From Lentisphaera profundi (lineage in GTDB: Bacteria; Verrucomicrobiota; Lentisphaeria; Lentisphaerales; Lentisphaeraceae): a stretch of DNA of 64,000 nt. This document shows positions 26,231-57,566 of the stretch, piece by piece. Below the pieces are notes generated by a model, which was not told the origin of the DNA, did not search any database, and worked only from the letters and a program-made list of their open reading frames with translations. Each line of letters begins with the position of its first letter. Positions within the stretch are counted from its first letter, which is position 1. The stretch is from assembly GCF_028728065.1 (NCBI RefSeq), contig NZ_CP117811.1, forward strand, positions 930,001 through 994,000. The letters run 5' to 3'. The position numbers and the translations under genes were made by a program.

Positions 26231-26270
26231 AAAAAAAAAAGGCTCAGATCAGTGATGATCTGAGCCTTTT
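26231..26270. terminator. bidirectional terminator between sulfatase and tRNA-Leu copy 1
   Basis: An 11-bp perfect stem GGCTCAGATCA/TGATCTGAGCC (26241-26251 with 26256-26266) with loop GTGA. There is a run of ten A on the left (T-tract for the minus-strand tRNA) and TTTT on the right (for the plus-strand sulfatase). The same stem sequence recurs at 35700-35725 beside the second tRNA copy. Confidence 0.85.
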
Positions 26271-26273
26271 AAG

Positions 26274-26355
26274 TACTCGAAGCGGGAGTCGAACCCGCAC
26301 GGATTTCTCCACACGGCCCTCAACCGTGCGCGTCTGCCAATTCCGCCACTCGAGC
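26274..26355 (-). tRNA. tRNA-Leu (anticodon GAG), copy 1
   Basis: An 82-base class II tRNA. On the minus strand it starts GCTCGAG and ends at the discriminator A of CTTCGAGTA. The acceptor pairs with two G-U wobbles. The anticodon loop is TTGAGGG on a CACGG/CCGTG stem, giving anticodon GAG (reads CUC/CUU). There is a long variable arm with stem GGA/TCC, and the T-loop is GGGTTCGACTCCC. The 3' CCA is not encoded. A 7-bp hairpin with a TTCG loop sits in the 5' leader about 12 bases before the tRNA. It is identical to the copy at 35734-35815. Confidence 0.95.
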
Positions 26356-26425
26356 TTCCTAACAGACCAATCTCCGAAGAGATTGCTGGCGTTCAAAACG
26401 ATCTTTCCTTGTTGAGAACGGCGAC

Positions 26426-35725: not shown

Positions 35726-35733
35726 TCTTAAAG

Positions 35734-35815
35734 TACTCGAAGCGGGAGTCGAACCCGCACGGATTTCTCCACACGGCCCTCAACCGTGCGCGTCTGCCAA
35801 TTCCGCCACTCGAGC
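35734..35815 (-). tRNA. tRNA-Leu (anticodon GAG), copy 2
   Basis: Identical in all 82 bases to the gene at 26274-26355, including the GAG anticodon, long variable arm and absence of an encoded CCA. Its 5' leader carries the same CAATCTC-TTCG-GAGATTG hairpin. It is transcribed toward pstS, from which it is separated by its own terminator. Confidence 0.95.
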
Positions 35816-35883
35816 TTCCTAACAGACCAATCTCCGAAGAGATTGCTGGCGTTCAAAACGATGTTTTGTTCTTGAACGTGGTC

Positions 35884-50634: not shown

Positions 50635-51849
50635 ATGAGGATTATACATACATCGGATTGGCATTTGGGTCAGAACTTCATGAATAAGAGCCGAGAGCCC
50701 GAACACCGCGCCTTTCTTGTGTGGTTACTGAAGCAATTGATTGAACATAAAGTCGATGCTCTCGTAGTCGCTGGTGATATCTTTGATACAGGCACGCCTC
50801 CAAGTTACGCCCGAAAAATATATTTTGATTTCTTAAAAAGTGCAGCGAAAGAGTGGGGTGGTCAGGTGGTGATTGTCGGTGGCAACCACGATTCAGTGAG
50901 CACACTTAATGAATCAGGTGGAGTCTTGGAAGTTGTCAATACTTTTGTCATTGGTGGTGCGGCAGATGACCCAATAGATGAGGTATGTGCTTTGAATAAA
51001 CTTTCAGGTGAGCCCGGAGCCATTATTGCCGCAGTTCCTTATTTACGGGACCGTGACGTCCGAATATCGGAAGCTGGGCAGAGTGCTGATGAGAAGTCAG
51101 CGGCACTCCGCAAGGGAATTAGCGATCATTATGCGGAAGTTTATGAAGCTAGCAAAATAAAAGCATCTGAAATAGGTGGTGATTTACCTTTGATTGCAAC
51201 GGGTCATTTAACCACCTCGGGCAGTGAACTCAGCGAGGGCGTACGCGAGCTTTATATTGGGACATTACAGGGCTATGATTCAGCCTCCTTCCCCGAAGAC
51301 TTTGATTATATTGCTCTGGGGCACTTACATAAAAAACAGGTAATGGGTCCACGTGAACAAATTCGTTATTGTGGTTCACCCATACCACTATCGTTCATGG
51401 AAGCCAAATATGAGCGCTCAGTTAATTTAGTCGATTTAAAAGCAGGTGAAAAACCTGTCGTTGAAGAATTAGTGGTGCCGATTCATCAAAAGCTTTTGAG
51501 CCTAAGTGGCAAATTAAATGAAATTATCGAGCAGATTCAAAAACTTCCAAGTGAAGACGAAGCTTACTGGCTCGAAATTCAAATTGAGCTCGATGGTACA
51601 GAAGGCAATGTCATAAGCCAAATTAATGATTTAACACTTGAGATGAAACACGAGGTTTTGCGAGTCAAGCGTCAGCATAAAAACAAAGAGCTTCGTTTAA
51701 AGCGACTCAATGCCGAGAGGTTACATGAAATGACTGTGGAAGAAGTCTTTGAGAAACGCCTAGGCATAGCGGAATTGGATGAAGATCAGAATGGAATCCT
51801 TAGGCATTTATTTAAACAAGCCAAAAACTTGGTGGAGCAGAAATCGTGA
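50635..51849 (+). CDS. sbcD: nuclease SbcD (Mre11 family)
   Basis: The ATG at 50635 (MRIIHTSDWHLGQ) is preferred to one 12 bases upstream because GAGAG lies about 6 bases before it and the phosphoesterase fold starts there. About 404 residues. Metal-binding motifs: Asp and His in SDWHLG, AGDIFDTG, GGNHDS, ATGHLTTSG and LGHLHKKQ. It is the double-strand exonuclease and hairpin endonuclease subunit. It overlaps sbcC by 4 bases (GTGA). Confidence 0.95.
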   Translation: MRIIHTSDWHLGQNFMNKSREPEHRAFLVWLLKQLIEHKVDALVVAGDIFDTGTPPSYARKIYFDFLKSAAKEWGGQVVIVGGNHDSVSTLNESGGVLEVVNTFVIGGAADDPIDEVCALNKLSGEPGAIIAAVPYLRDRDVRISEAGQSADEKSAALRKGISDHYAEVYEASKIKASEIGGDLPLIATGHLTTSGSELSEGVRELYIGTLQGYDSASFPEDFDYIALGHLHKKQVMGPREQIRYCGSPIPLSFMEAKYERSVNLVDLKAGEKPVVEELVVPIHQKLLSLSGKLNEIIEQIQKLPSEDEAYWLEIQIELDGTEGNVISQINDLTLEMKHEVLRVKRQHKNKELRLKRLNAERLHEMTVEEVFEKRLGIAELDEDQNGILRHLFKQAKNLVEQKS

Positions 51850-54800
51850 AAATTCATAAACTAAAGTTTAAGAATCTCAATTCACTCAAAGGTGAATGGC
51901 AGATCGATTTTGATGAACCGGAATTTCGCGATAATGGTCTCTTTGCCATCATGGGACCTACCGGTGCAGGAAAAACGACGATTCTCGATGCGATTTGTTT
52001 AGCCCTTTATTATCGAACCCCGCGTTTAGATAAAGTGAATTCGAGTCACAACGAAATCATGACGCGTCATACGGGGGAATGTTTTTCAGAAGTTGAATTT
52101 TCAGTCAATGCCAAACGTTACCGTTCTTGTTGGTATCAGCAACGGGCATCTAAAAAAGCGGATGGGAAACTGCAACCCCTAAGGCTTGAGTTAGTTGATA
52201 TGGAATCGGGCAAACCGATGGAAACGCAAATCAAAAAGATTCAGCCCCTCATTGAGAAAATCACTGGATTAAATTACGACCGTTTTATTCGCTCCGTGAT
52301 GTTAGCTCAAGGTGGTTTTACTGCTTTCCTCAAAGCCAAAGAAGAAGAAAAAGCGGGAATGCTAGAGGAGATGACTGGCACAGAAATTTATACCTTGATT
52401 GGTATGAAAATTTTTGAGTGTGAAAAAGTCGAAAAAGAGCAACTGGCATTGCTTCAAGCGCGTTTAGGTGAATCCAAGCTCTTGAGTGAGGAACAAGTCG
52501 AAGACTTGCAAAACCATAAAGGGACTAAGGGACTGGAACTTAAGCTTGAAATAACTAAGCAAAAAGAACTTAAAGATAAGTTGGGCTGGCATGAGAATCT
52601 TATTAAAATATCTTCAAATATAGAAGCTGATCGACTTAATGAGCTCAATTCTAAAAAAGAACTTGAGGCATTTTTACCGCAACAAAAACGCTTAGATCGT
52701 TATGTACCAGCACTGGCCCTCCAAGCTAAGTACGAAGAGTTCAAAAAAATCTCTACTGACTTAGATTCTGTAGTTAAGGCTGGGCAGCAACTTGCTAAAC
52801 AAGCCAAAGAAAAAGAAATTGAGTTTATAGGATCTGACTTAGCGCAAAAACAGAAAAATGATGAGATTGAAGTTTTTGAATTAGCTCGTGAAAAAGAAGA
52901 AAAAATGATTAGGGAAAAACTGATTCCCTTAGATCAAGAGCTAGCCAAAATTATGGTGGAGCATGAGTCACAAGAAAAACTTTTTACCTCCAAATCAAAA
53001 GAGCTTCAAATACTTCTCAAGGAAATTGAAGAAGTTAAAAACAAGCTTGCTTTAGATCAAAAAAACGTACTTGCTCAAAATTCATGGCTGGATAAGAATA
53101 AAAGTTTGGTGGCTTTAGAGGCACAGTTACCACTGATCAAAGACTCTTTGAATCGCCTTAAGTTGAAATCTGATGATTTACATAAAGAACAACTTTCCTT
53201 TGACGCCAATCAAGGTTTAGCCATAAAGGCCAAAGAGCAATCAAAATCATTAGCGCAAAACGCAGAAAAGTCTCAGGCGGAACTTACTGAGATCACTAAC
53301 TTACATTCTGAAAAAAAGACTTACTTAGAAGTGAAACTAGCCGGTCGTGAACTGGATAATTTGACTAATGAATCATATCAATTCGATCAGCAATTAAAGG
53401 ATTTGCTTCACTTAAAAAAGCTTGCAGGTGAACTCCTTGAGAAACAAGAAAGAAAAAGCGAGAAATTGGTGAAGCTTCAAGCTAGTCAGAAAAATCAGCA
53501 AGAAGAAGGCAAAGAACTAGAACTTATAGAAGTAAATCTTAAACAGAGTCAAGATTTAGTGGAAGCACGTCGCCTAATTTGGGAACGAGAAAAACAAATT
53601 TGTTCACTAGAGCTTTATCGTCAGCAGCTTCAGGAAGAGGAGAGTTGTCCGCTGTGTGGTTCGAAGGATCATCCCGGGATTAAAGCTTATGCGAAGATAG
53701 AGCTTTCCAGCTCCGAAGCATCCTATCAAGAGGCTCAAGCTCAAGAAAATGATTATGTACTTAGACATAATAAACTAAAGACCAAATTTGAATTGACTAA
53801 GCAAGAGATTACAAATTCACAGGAAGCGCTAGAAATTGACGGACTTGAATTCGAAAAAATTCATCAGGCCTATTTATCTCTGTCGGCACAATTAGAGCTG
53901 AAATCAGAATTCACAGATAAAGAAGAATTACAGAGTGTCGAGCTAGAGAAGCAGCAAGAACAACAAAGACTGAAACAGAACTTAAGTGAATTAAAGCAGC
54001 TCACGAAAGAATTGAACCTATTGGAGATTAAGCTTCAAGAAGCTACTCGAAAATCCCAGAAGATAAGTACAGATTCCTTAATTCAATTAAAGGAATACAA
54101 AGCTCAAGAGCAAGCCTTGGAATTGCAAGAAAGCAAAGTGCGGGAACTCAAGAGTGACGTTCAGAAGGAGCAAGAAGGGATAAAATCCACCCTGAAAAAA
54201 TTGGATATGTCCTTGCCTGCAGATAAGCAGATTCCAGCTTTTCTCACAAAACTGCAGGATGAGTTTGAGATATATAAGAAAAACCTAGTAGATGTACAAG
54301 CCTTGACTCAATCCTGTGCAATCCATGAAGCGAGTTTACAGGGCAAAGCCGGCACGGAAAAGAAATTAAACTCAGCTCATCAAACTGAGCAAGAGAAATT
54401 TGAGATATTAAGCAAGAGCCTCAAAGAGCTTCAATTAAAGCGTCGTGAACTCTATGGAGAAAAAAATATTGAGCATTGCCGCAAGCAATTCCAAGAAAAA
54501 TCTAATGTTTTACAAGTCAACTTAAAGAAGCTAGTAGAAGCTCGACAAATACAGCAAACAGCCTTTAAGGTACTCACGACTCAATTGCAAGATAATCAAA
54601 TTCAGGAAAAACTCTCAGCTCAAGAACTGACCCAGGTGAAAATAAGCTTTGAATCATCGCTTAAAGCGTCTGAATTTACAGATGAAATGGACTTAAAGGC
54701 CGCTTTCCTTCCCGAAAGTGAGTATCAAGTACTTAGCAAAAAATCAGAAAAACTTAAGCTCTCCTATAATGCCGCTACCACTAGCTTGAAGAATAGTGAA

Positions 54801-55517
54801 CAATCTTATCAGCTCGAGTTGGATAAAAAATTGACTCTAGAGAGCTATGAAGACCTTAAGCAAGTCGACTTGGCCTTGGTGCAAGTTTTAGCTGAAATAA
54901 CACGTCAAATCAATGGTTTTGAATTTAAACTGAAGGCGAATACGGAAGAACAAGAGAAGTCAGCTGAATTAAGTCAACTAATATTAGATCAAGAGAAAGT
55001 TCTGAAAAGTTGGAGTCATTTATCGAGTCTGATCGGAGATGCCAAGGGTGAGAAGTTCTCTCGTTTTGCACAAAGCATAAGTTTAGAATATCTCACAGAT
55101 TTGGCTAATGAGCATTTACTTCGACTCTTTCCTCGCTATGAATTAAAAGTGGGTGAGAAACTAGAACTTCAGATACTCGACTCCTATCAAGCCGATATCA
55201 TTCGCCCTGTGAGTACTTTGAGTGGAGGAGAAAGCTTCTTAGTGAGCTTGGCACTAGCACTGGGGCTCTCGGACCTAGCTTCTGATACAGTAAGCATAGA
55301 ATCACTATTTCTAGATGAAGGCTTTGGGACACTCGATGCAGAGACTCTAGATGTAGCACTCGATGCCCTAGATAGTCTTAAAAACTCAGGACGTATGGTC
55401 GGGGTAATCTCTCATGTAGAAGCTCTTAAAGAACGCATAACGACACGTATTCAAGTTTTTGCGGCTAATGGTGTGAGTCATCTCGAGGAGCGTTTTCGTA
55501 TAATGGCTAAAGCTTAA
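51846..55517 (+). CDS. sbcC: SMC-like ATPase SbcC (Rad50 family)
   Basis: A 1223-residue protein starting at GTG 51846. N-terminal ATPase half with Walker A GPTGAGKTT (about 38-46), long coiled coil (roughly 200-1020) interrupted by the zinc hook Cys601-P-L-C604, and C-terminal half with signature LSGGESFLVSLALALG and Walker B SLFLDEGFGTLDAETLD. With SbcD it opens DNA hairpins and degrades protein-blocked ends. Length is typical of long SbcC proteins. It converges on recD across an inverted-repeat element. Confidence 0.96.
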   Translation: MKIHKLKFKNLNSLKGEWQIDFDEPEFRDNGLFAIMGPTGAGKTTILDAICLALYYRTPRLDKVNSSHNEIMTRHTGECFSEVEFSVNAKRYRSCWYQQRASKKADGKLQPLRLELVDMESGKPMETQIKKIQPLIEKITGLNYDRFIRSVMLAQGGFTAFLKAKEEEKAGMLEEMTGTEIYTLIGMKIFECEKVEKEQLALLQARLGESKLLSEEQVEDLQNHKGTKGLELKLEITKQKELKDKLGWHENLIKISSNIEADRLNELNSKKELEAFLPQQKRLDRYVPALALQAKYEEFKKISTDLDSVVKAGQQLAKQAKEKEIEFIGSDLAQKQKNDEIEVFELAREKEEKMIREKLIPLDQELAKIMVEHESQEKLFTSKSKELQILLKEIEEVKNKLALDQKNVLAQNSWLDKNKSLVALEAQLPLIKDSLNRLKLKSDDLHKEQLSFDANQGLAIKAKEQSKSLAQNAEKSQAELTEITNLHSEKKTYLEVKLAGRELDNLTNESYQFDQQLKDLLHLKKLAGELLEKQERKSEKLVKLQASQKNQQEEGKELELIEVNLKQSQDLVEARRLIWEREKQICSLELYRQQLQEEESCPLCGSKDHPGIKAYAKIELSSSEASYQEAQAQENDYVLRHNKLKTKFELTKQEITNSQEALEIDGLEFEKIHQAYLSLSAQLELKSEFTDKEELQSVELEKQQEQQRLKQNLSELKQLTKELNLLEIKLQEATRKSQKISTDSLIQLKEYKAQEQALELQESKVRELKSDVQKEQEGIKSTLKKLDMSLPADKQIPAFLTKLQDEFEIYKKNLVDVQALTQSCAIHEASLQGKAGTEKKLNSAHQTEQEKFEILSKSLKELQLKRRELYGEKNIEHCRKQFQEKSNVLQVNLKKLVEARQIQQTAFKVLTTQLQDNQIQEKLSAQELTQVKISFESSLKASEFTDEMDLKAAFLPESEYQVLSKKSEKLKLSYNAATTSLKNSEQSYQLELDKKLTLESYEDLKQVDLALVQVLAEITRQINGFEFKLKANTEEQEKSAELSQLILDQEKVLKSWSHLSSLIGDAKGEKFSRFAQSISLEYLTDLANEHLLRLFPRYELKVGEKLELQILDSYQADIIRPVSTLSGGESFLVSLALALGLSDLASDTVSIESLFLDEGFGTLDAETLDVALDALDSLKNSGRMVGVISHVEALKERITTRIQVFAANGVSHLEERFRIMAKA

Positions 55518-55558
55518 GAAGCTGAACCCTGAACCCAAAAATCTGAGTAAAAAGAAAC

Positions 55559-55691
55559 ACGATTACCCATAAAGCGGGGCAAAGCCCCTAATCGCCTGGT
55601 CAAGGAAAGGCATTTCCTTGCTGGGGGAGCTCGAGGGGGACAGCGTCCCTCTCGTATGCGAAGCATCATGCCCTCTATTCTGGGTAATCGT
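55559..55691. repeat. 133-base nested palindromic element between sbcC and recD
   Basis: The ends are a perfect 11-bp inverted repeat, ACGATTACCCA (55559-55569) and TGGGTAATCGT (55681-55691). Inside are four hairpins: GGGGC-AAA-GCCCC (55576-55588), CAAGGAAA-GGCA-TTTCCTTG (55601-55620), a 9-bp stem with one wobble (55632-55654) and ATGC-GAA-GCAT (55656-55666). As RNA or single-stranded DNA it would fold as a multi-branched junction closed by the outer stem. It looks like a MITE-like or structured intergenic repeat; no T-tract follows. Confidence 0.7.
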
Positions 55692-55718
55692 AAAAAGAAA
55701 TGAACTCAGCGCATTTTA

Positions 55719-57566
55719 TTATTTCAATCGTTTTAATAAACCCGAGAAACGTTGTGTTATCTTTTTACAGGCATTTAAAAGTTCCTTGTGGTCGGCATAA
55801 ATCTCGACGTATTCTTTGGCGCGGGTGATGCCGGTATAAAAAAGCTCCTTGCTTAAAAGGCGTTCCGATTTATCGGACAAAACGAGGTAAACCTTATTGT
55901 ATTCGGAGCCTTGAGATTTGTGAATAGTCATGGCAAAAGAACTTTCATAATCGGGTAAAACAGAAGGTGGAAACTCGCGTATTGTATTATTGTCACCAAG
56001 GAAATAAACTTTGGGTAAATCATTAGTAATCAGCACGACACCAATATCACCGTTATAGAGCTTTAAACTATTATCATTACGCGTAATCATGAGTGCGCGA
56101 CCATGATAAAGGGCTTCATCATTCTGATTAAAAATCTTTTTACTAATAAAAGTATTGAGCGCTTCGGAGCCGTAGTTACCGCTGCGTCCAGCACAAAGAA
56201 TACGAGCTTCATTGAGTTTAGCTAAGATAGTAGAGACTTCCTTAGTCCTAAGGATAGCCAGGTATTCATCGAAGAACTTTTTCAAAGTCTTGTCAAGTAT
56301 GGATTCTATTTTTGTAGGGAGAGCTAAATGGCATATATCCTCATATTTTTCGAAATAAGATGAATCTTCTAGAGGGTGAGGATTCGGGGCTTCATTTACA
56401 TCTTTGGCCAAGTGTCCAATACCTGAATCATCCTTAAAGCGCCAGCTATGCTCTAGCTTGACCATCACATCTTGAAGAGGACTCTCTCGCTCAGATAGTT
56501 CCAGTTGTATACCCTTTGTCAGTGCTTGATAATCGCTACAGAATTGTTGCGAGAAGCTATTGATTTTATCGCCTGAGGTTAGGTCACCCAAGACATTGCC
56601 CGTTTCAACTGCAGCTAATTGATCCTTATCTCCCAAGAGAATGACGCGACAATCATCTCTAAGAGCGTTTAATACCGCGCGAAAGAGCACGAGAGGTACC
56701 ATAGAACTCTCATCGATGAGTAGGATATTACTTGAGCATTTATTCTTCTGATTATGTTTGAAACCACCACCTGGATTAAATCCTAAATAGCGATGAATCG
56801 TCTCAGCTGTTTGCGGAATTTTTTTAAGAATGCTTTCTGCAATATTTGTTTTTTCGCCTAATTCAATAAGGGTATTTTTAATGGATTGACCTAAGCGATC
56901 TGCCGCTTTTCCCGTAGGCGCTACCAAATTGATTTTCACATCGGGATCTTGACTAATGAGGAGGGCTAAAATATTGCCAACGGTTGTTGTTTTTCCCGTG
57001 CCAGGACCACCGGAAATAACACAGAAGCGACTTCGTAAGGCAGCGAAAGCAGCCACTTTTTGCCAGTTAATAATTTCAAGATTATTATCACTATCAATGA
57101 CTGTTTTGTCAGGGAGCAAGTCATTGAGTTGATTAATGAGCTCAGTGGATAGACTCAGTGCTGTGGAGCTCATATTATTGATGTAATCAGCTACTGATGC
57201 TTCTGCCCGGTAATACTTATTGAGATAGAGTAAGCCATTTTCGGGATCGAGAATGAGTGGCTTATCATCGTCGGCTAGACCAATGGTATGGGAATAGCGT
57301 TGTGGCCAATCCTTATAATCCGTGAAGGGTGGTACTTGGTGTGACAAAGCTTCGCCTTCATTTGTTTTACCCTCAAGCAAAATATTATCTAAGGGGAGCA
57401 CGCTGTGCTGTTGGTTAGCGTAGTAGCTTAAACAAAGTGTTGCCGTATACAGCTCCGACGTAGAATCGGCGGGCTCTTGTGAAATAATGTAATCTGCAAA
57501 TCGACGATCAATATCATTGAAAAAGGGAAGTGCGATTACATGATTCTGTTGAGTAGTGCTAGGCAT
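55719..57566 (-). CDS. recD: exodeoxyribonuclease V alpha subunit RecD
   Basis: A 615-residue SF1B helicase. After an N-terminal ~170 residues that bind RecC/RecB come Walker A GGPGTGKTTT (about 185-194), NLVAPTGKAADRL, LLIDESSMV, LLGDKDQLAAVETGNVLGDL, and the C-terminal motifs FAMTIHKSQGSEY and YTGITRAKEYVEIY. It is the 5'-3' motor of RecBCD. It overlaps recB by 8 bases. The RecD type (partnered with RecB and RecC) is chosen over the stand-alone RecD2 because of the operon. Confidence 0.93.
   Translation of the reverse strand: MPSTTQQNHVIALPFFNDIDRRFADYIISQEPADSTSELYTATLCLSYYANQQHSVLPLDNILLEGKTNEGEALSHQVPPFTDYKDWPQRYSHTIGLADDDKPLILDPENGLLYLNKYYRAEASVADYINNMSSTALSLSTELINQLNDLLPDKTVIDSDNNLEIINWQKVAAFAALRSRFCVISGGPGTGKTTTVGNILALLISQDPDVKINLVAPTGKAADRLGQSIKNTLIELGEKTNIAESILKKIPQTAETIHRYLGFNPGGGFKHNQKNKCSSNILLIDESSMVPLVLFRAVLNALRDDCRVILLGDKDQLAAVETGNVLGDLTSGDKINSFSQQFCSDYQALTKGIQLELSERESPLQDVMVKLEHSWRFKDDSGIGHLAKDVNEAPNPHPLEDSSYFEKYEDICHLALPTKIESILDKTLKKFFDEYLAILRTKEVSTILAKLNEARILCAGRSGNYGSEALNTFISKKIFNQNDEALYHGRALMITRNDNSLKLYNGDIGVVLITNDLPKVYFLGDNNTIREFPPSVLPDYESSFAMTIHKSQGSEYNKVYLVLSDKSERLLSKELFYTGITRAKEYVEIYADHKELLNACKKITQRFSGLLKRLK

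Follow-up and report, generated by a model that had tools for sequence, protein, structure and literature searches.

The hairpin-rich stretch between the sbcC-like and recD-like genes of Lentisphaera profundi is confirmed as a real feature and not a chance palindrome. It is very probably a MITE with the same ends as a resident insertion sequence of the IS1595 family, and a structured, RNA-like module seems to ride inside it. The copy analyzed here lies in a window of 64,000 nucleotides, which was the whole stretch of DNA under study.

The original prediction had described a 133-base element with perfect 11-bp terminal inverted repeats and four internal hairpins, and both repeats and hairpins are present as described. 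The outer arms 55559-55569 (ACGATTACCCA) and 55681-55691 (TGGGTAATCGT) match perfectly. As an 8-bp repeat, AAAAGAAA, lies directly outside in two identical copies (55550-55557 and 55693-55700), the element proper covers 55558-55692 on the plus strand; 133 bases is thus right for the perfect arms, while the true ends lie one base further out on each side. This 135-bp element, which belongs to type A, begins with the terminal inverted repeat CACGATTACCCA (55558-55569, plus strand), identical to the first 12 bases of an IS1595-family insertion sequence at locus L077 of the congener G001, and closes with the right repeat (55681-55692, minus strand), whose last base is A where the consensus has G. 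In between, the plus strand carries hairpin P1 (55576-55588, GGGGC-AAA-GCCCC), hairpin P2 (55592-55629) with its inner stem (55601-55608 paired with 55613-55620) and a GGCA loop at 55609-55612, hairpin P3 (55632-55654, CGAGGGGGAC-AGC-GTCCCTCTCG), and hairpin P4 (55656-55666, ATGC-GAA-GCAT), which in other copies takes the forms GTGCGAAGCAC, ATGCGAAGCAT, and CTGCGAAGCAG and in some copies is replaced. No open reading frame of 80 amino acids overlaps the 135 bp, so that there is no transposase gene inside. The RNA fold of 55550-55700 had an energy of -65.6 kcal/mol compared with -43.1 +/- 4.2 kcal/mol for shuffled sequences (z = -5.3), and none of 200 shuffles was as good.

Perfect 11-bp arms on their own are not rare, as 21 pairs of 11-mer arms at most 160 nt apart were counted with overlaps in the whole window, compared with 0 to 10 in ten simulated windows, but arms and hairpins together are rare. 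Chance palindromes, which the commonness of such arms would favor, have a negligible probability in view of the fold energy and of the many related copies with duplicated flanks, and are refuted by 44 BLAST matches, target duplications, and 108 model matches. The 44 BLAST matches were found in the own genome (5.46 Mb, two contigs), with 97% identity for the best other copy. A covariance model built from 33 copies gave at least 108 matches in the own genome, the window copy being one of them, and 34 and 63 matches in the two congeners G001 and G002. The same model had 0 matches in three other genomes of the family, BLAST had 0 matches in 96 genomes outside the genus, and exact pattern matches among named genomes all belonged to Lentisphaera marina. 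Another family of the class gave weak core matches (E 4e-6 to 8e-4) in two genomes, G109 (L233, L238, L243, L247) and G113 (L234, L239); these repeats have a hairpin layout similar to that of the core but little sequence in common with it, and one group of them lies near contig starts.

The aligned copies are bounded by the terminal inverted repeats CACGATTACCCA / TGGGTAATCGTG, and the original suggestion of a MITE-like, non-autonomous mobile element is well supported by the dispersed copies, the 8-bp target duplications, and the resident insertion sequence with matching ends. The flanking 8-mers agree at 7 or 8 bases in 29 of the 38 two-ended copies, compared with 1.6% for mismatched left/right pairs. 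Exact flank repeats occur in 15 copies and are all of length 8, the only ones of other lengths being two of length 4. The duplicated targets are A+T-rich, and that of the window copy is AAAAGAAA. An empty site was also sought with the flanks of L017 and L002, for which gene neighbors are not conserved. In the congeners, the recD orthologs and the gene to the right of L002 have no element next to them, but the neighboring genes differ there. As sbcC is not adjacent to recD in G001 and G002, the sbcC-recD junction has no comparable empty site.

A search with the end sequence returned inverted pairs about 1039 bp apart, which are insertion sequences encoding a 316-aa transposase of the IS1595 family. 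Its domains PF12760 and PF12762 (zinc ribbon and DDE) scored above the curated cut-offs, also in the G001 copy. Such 1039-bp elements are present in all three Lentisphaera genomes, and their ends read CACGATTAACCAG, or CACGATTACCCAG in G001. Seven insertion sequence copies (1039 bp, one of 1038 bp) have identical 8-bp flanks, and in one of the seven the transposase gene is broken. Duplications of 8 bp are described for the IS1016 group of the IS1595 family (PMC10045372). The same ends and the exact 8-bp duplications in the resident insertion sequence mean that the element is best interpreted as a MITE mobilized in trans. At their ends, MITE and insertion sequence are similar over about 12 bp and no further, so that the MITE resembles an element with shared ends and not a deletion derivative. 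We infer that the transposase of this insertion sequence is the enzyme acting on the MITE and that it still acts. The resident transposase would recognize the terminal inverted repeats and move the MITE in trans into A+T-rich 8-bp targets, which are thereby duplicated, and the window copy would have inserted into AAAAGAAA in the gap where the sbcC-like and recD-like genes converge. A CTCGATTACCC pair at positions 1131459 and 1135772 of contig 2 was considered as a 4.3-kb element and rejected, since the left one lies inside a coding sequence, an SGNH-hydrolase-like open reading frame with a GDSITHNW motif.

The outer arms had been proposed to close the whole element into a multi-branch fold, which the aligned copies do not support as a conserved feature. 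The terminal repeats drift independently: only 78.8% of the cells of the outer stem are paired in 33 aligned copies, one pair fails in 20 of the 33, and the end-to-end stem shows no covariation. The internal hairpins P1, P2, and P3 have 94-97% of cells paired in the same copies (93.8% for P1 and 94% for P3). For a set of 49 more diverse cores, the covariation score was 0.291, compared with 0.147 after shuffling and at most 0.092 with the partners slid; two-sided changes occurred at 13 pairs compared with 6.6, and helices P2, P3, and P4 covary, P2 with compensatory changes at several pairs. The loop of P2 is GGCA in 107 of 111 distinct cores, while three or four Watson-Crick combinations are seen at the two closing pairs. 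In P1-P3 there are 83 G-U cells and only 10 A-C cells, whereas the end stem has 24 and 36; as the copies share ancestry, these counts are not independent events. Such an imbalance points to selection acting on a single strand, as it would for RNA.

The structured core between the MITE ends consists of P2 and P3, as a rule accompanied by P1 and P4. We consider that there is roughly an even chance that selection on one folded strand maintains this core, most likely as RNA within 3' untranslated parts of adjacent transcripts, with a possible role in the protection or processing of mRNA ends. The main competing explanation, to which we assign a lower but still substantial probability, is that the same MITE carries passive hairpins, i.e., palindromic filler whose arms are kept matched by template switching or by DNA repair templated on hairpins, the fold itself not being under selection. 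Paired changes would be expected from quasi-palindrome correction, a known process in DNA; hairpin-templated DNA repair is likewise able to yield compensatory changes, which weakens the RNA interpretation, and intact copies are randomly oriented relative to genes. However, repair would make no distinction between the strands, yet G-U is far more frequent than A-C in the internal hairpins and not in the end stem, the loop remains GGCA and not its complement TGCC, and the end stem, which is likewise an inverted repeat, is not kept matched. Selection on the folded strand is the reading that we prefer. The earlier proposal of a structured RNA is partly upheld, as the internal hairpins covary and are strand-biased; Rfam returned no match for the element even at a permissive threshold. 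Copies have no consistent orientation relative to genes, which also speaks against RNA.

Cores also occur without the IS ends: G001 has three of them in tandem with a spacing of 111 bp, and others lie in arrays, stand singly, or occupy sites common to more than one species. A more far-reaching reading, which we regard as tentative and rather doubtful, takes the core for a structured RNA (or single-strand DNA) module that is specific to the genus, has a near-invariant GGCA loop, and exists independently of the MITE; IS1595-type ends would spread it, and in places selection would have preserved it as a small-RNA or 3'-UTR element. If true, this would be a transposon-borne RNA regulator that was first dispersed and then domesticated. 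The family comprises elements of 135 bp, of about 170 bp with about 46 bp in the P2 apex, and of about 153 bp, and sites can be common to species while the element type differs (L129/L090, L029/L224, L150/L192). At the last of these, our reading of the sequences is that the P2 apex insert of L192 (about 1501-1668) seems inverted relative to other type-B copies. At the shared site L141/L212, whose loci are reciprocal best matches, the core looks better conserved in the alignment than the locus overall (76%); L162/L216 is conserved likewise, and L153/L197 is not. A long array of short hairpins with many GGGCGAAGCCC and with element cores was seen in L092 (1550-2150; about 1132050-1132650 of contig 2), and one of its hairpins resembles those beside Y1 genes.

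The end-less cores bear on a further possibility, that the core represents a REP/BIME-like family in its own right, which is mobilized by a Y1/RAYT transposase and was captured between ends of the IS1595 type. We consider this unlikely: the tandem copies with their 111-bp period and the arrays would fit it, as would Y1-type genes in the genome, some of them flanked by REP-like hairpins, but the hairpins beside these genes are other sequences, none of the 15 Y1 loci that were read contained a good core match (best E 0.19), and the cores without ends could just be old MITEs whose ends have decayed. As an observation in its own right, the Y1-type (RAYT-like) genes at L171, L172, L173, and L176 are flanked by REP-like hairpins such as CTGGGTACGCCAAGCACCTGCTTGGC that differ between genes, and there are probably several REP/RAYT systems in one genome.

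The window copy lies outside both neighboring genes, which are convergent: the sbcC-like gene (51846-55517, plus strand), an open reading frame named from the original prediction and its sequence, and the recD-like gene (55719-57566, minus strand, its end at 55719), an open reading frame with orthologs in both congeners. The link to SbcCD that had been raised from this position found no support. Element copies are spread over the whole of both own-genome contigs, and querying G001 and G002, both of which carry the element family, with the C-terminal 305 residues of SbcC gave no match, so that the proximity to sbcCD is most likely accidental. The same search gave one match in a genome of another genus of the family.

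The position between convergent genes would suit a bidirectional transcription terminator or insulator, and A+T-rich duplications can provide short T-runs. We consider such a role improbable, as the plus strand contains no T-tract and convergent gaps are hardly preferred. The original statement that a T-tract is absent is correct for this strand, whereas the minus strand has one weak terminator-like site at the left end of the element. According to context counts from a simple ORF caller, 66 of 70 own-genome copies are intergenic; 17 of the 66 lie in convergent gaps, which make up 22% of intergenic length, and divergent gaps are somewhat under-used (9 of 66 compared with 23%). About half or more of the copies between tandem genes are nearer to the 3' end of the upstream gene, a placement that counts in favor of the reading of the core as 3' untranslated RNA. 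The low number in divergent gaps and the nearness to upstream 3' ends fit selection against promoter disruption.

The two-ended copies are randomly oriented relative to genes. An orientation bias relative to upstream genes among decayed own-genome copies (19:4), which was noticed post hoc, was not repeated in G001 and G002 together (16:12). A bias with respect to replication was also rejected, as a hand tally based on the GC skew of the loci gave 31 leading and 39 lagging copies with no consistent bias; contig 2 alone leans toward lagging in this tally (10:23). The GC skew of scattered loci flips sign near 1.4-1.5 Mb on each contig of the own genome, which suggests that contigs 1 and 2 are two separately replicating chromosomes. 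Elsewhere in the window, a 148-nt direct repeat (97%) at 26268-26415 and 35728-35875 holds two tRNA-Leu(gag) genes at a distance of 9460 bp from each other. Between them lie genes resembling phoR, phoB, phoU, pstB, pstA, pstC, and pstS, and there is no integrase among the open reading frames of at least 100 aa around this phosphate operon with its duplicated tRNA.

In the literature searches, neither a MITE from Lentisphaera nor an IS1595 MITE of this type turned up, and the family provides a clear MITE/IS1595 pair in a little-studied phylum. With its drifting ends and its covarying, strand-biased core, it makes testable whether bacterial MITEs carry selected RNA structures or passive palindromes. 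The element is of a known kind, a MITE, and its hairpin cargo is unusual.

With the IS1595 family (IS1016 group; PMC10045372), the MITE has in common the ends CACGATTA(A/C)CCA, the 8-bp duplications, and the presence in the same genomes, but these insertion sequences have a transposase gene that the MITE lacks, and only the terminal 12 bp or so are shared. REP/BIME elements with RAYT (Y1) likewise form hairpin clusters in intergenic DNA, sometimes in arrays, whereas the cores analyzed here are not beside the examined Y1 genes, and the type-A copies have IS ends and 8-bp duplications. The RUP element of Streptococcus pneumoniae is a MITE attributed to IS630-Spn1 (PMC2229807) and resembles the present family in its size of about 100-200 bp, its intergenic location, its roughly one hundred copies, the ends of a resident insertion sequence, and the target duplication. 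It differs in the transposase family and in its target, TA instead of 8 bp, and PMC2229807 describes no conserved internal structure for it. ERIC and Correia/NEMIS are also small palindromic repeats with stable predicted RNA folds that are mostly intergenic, and they are reported to affect the stability or processing of neighboring mRNA (PMC2229807). In these repeats, one long stem joins both ends, whereas in the Lentisphaera family several short internal hairpins are conserved and the end stem is not.
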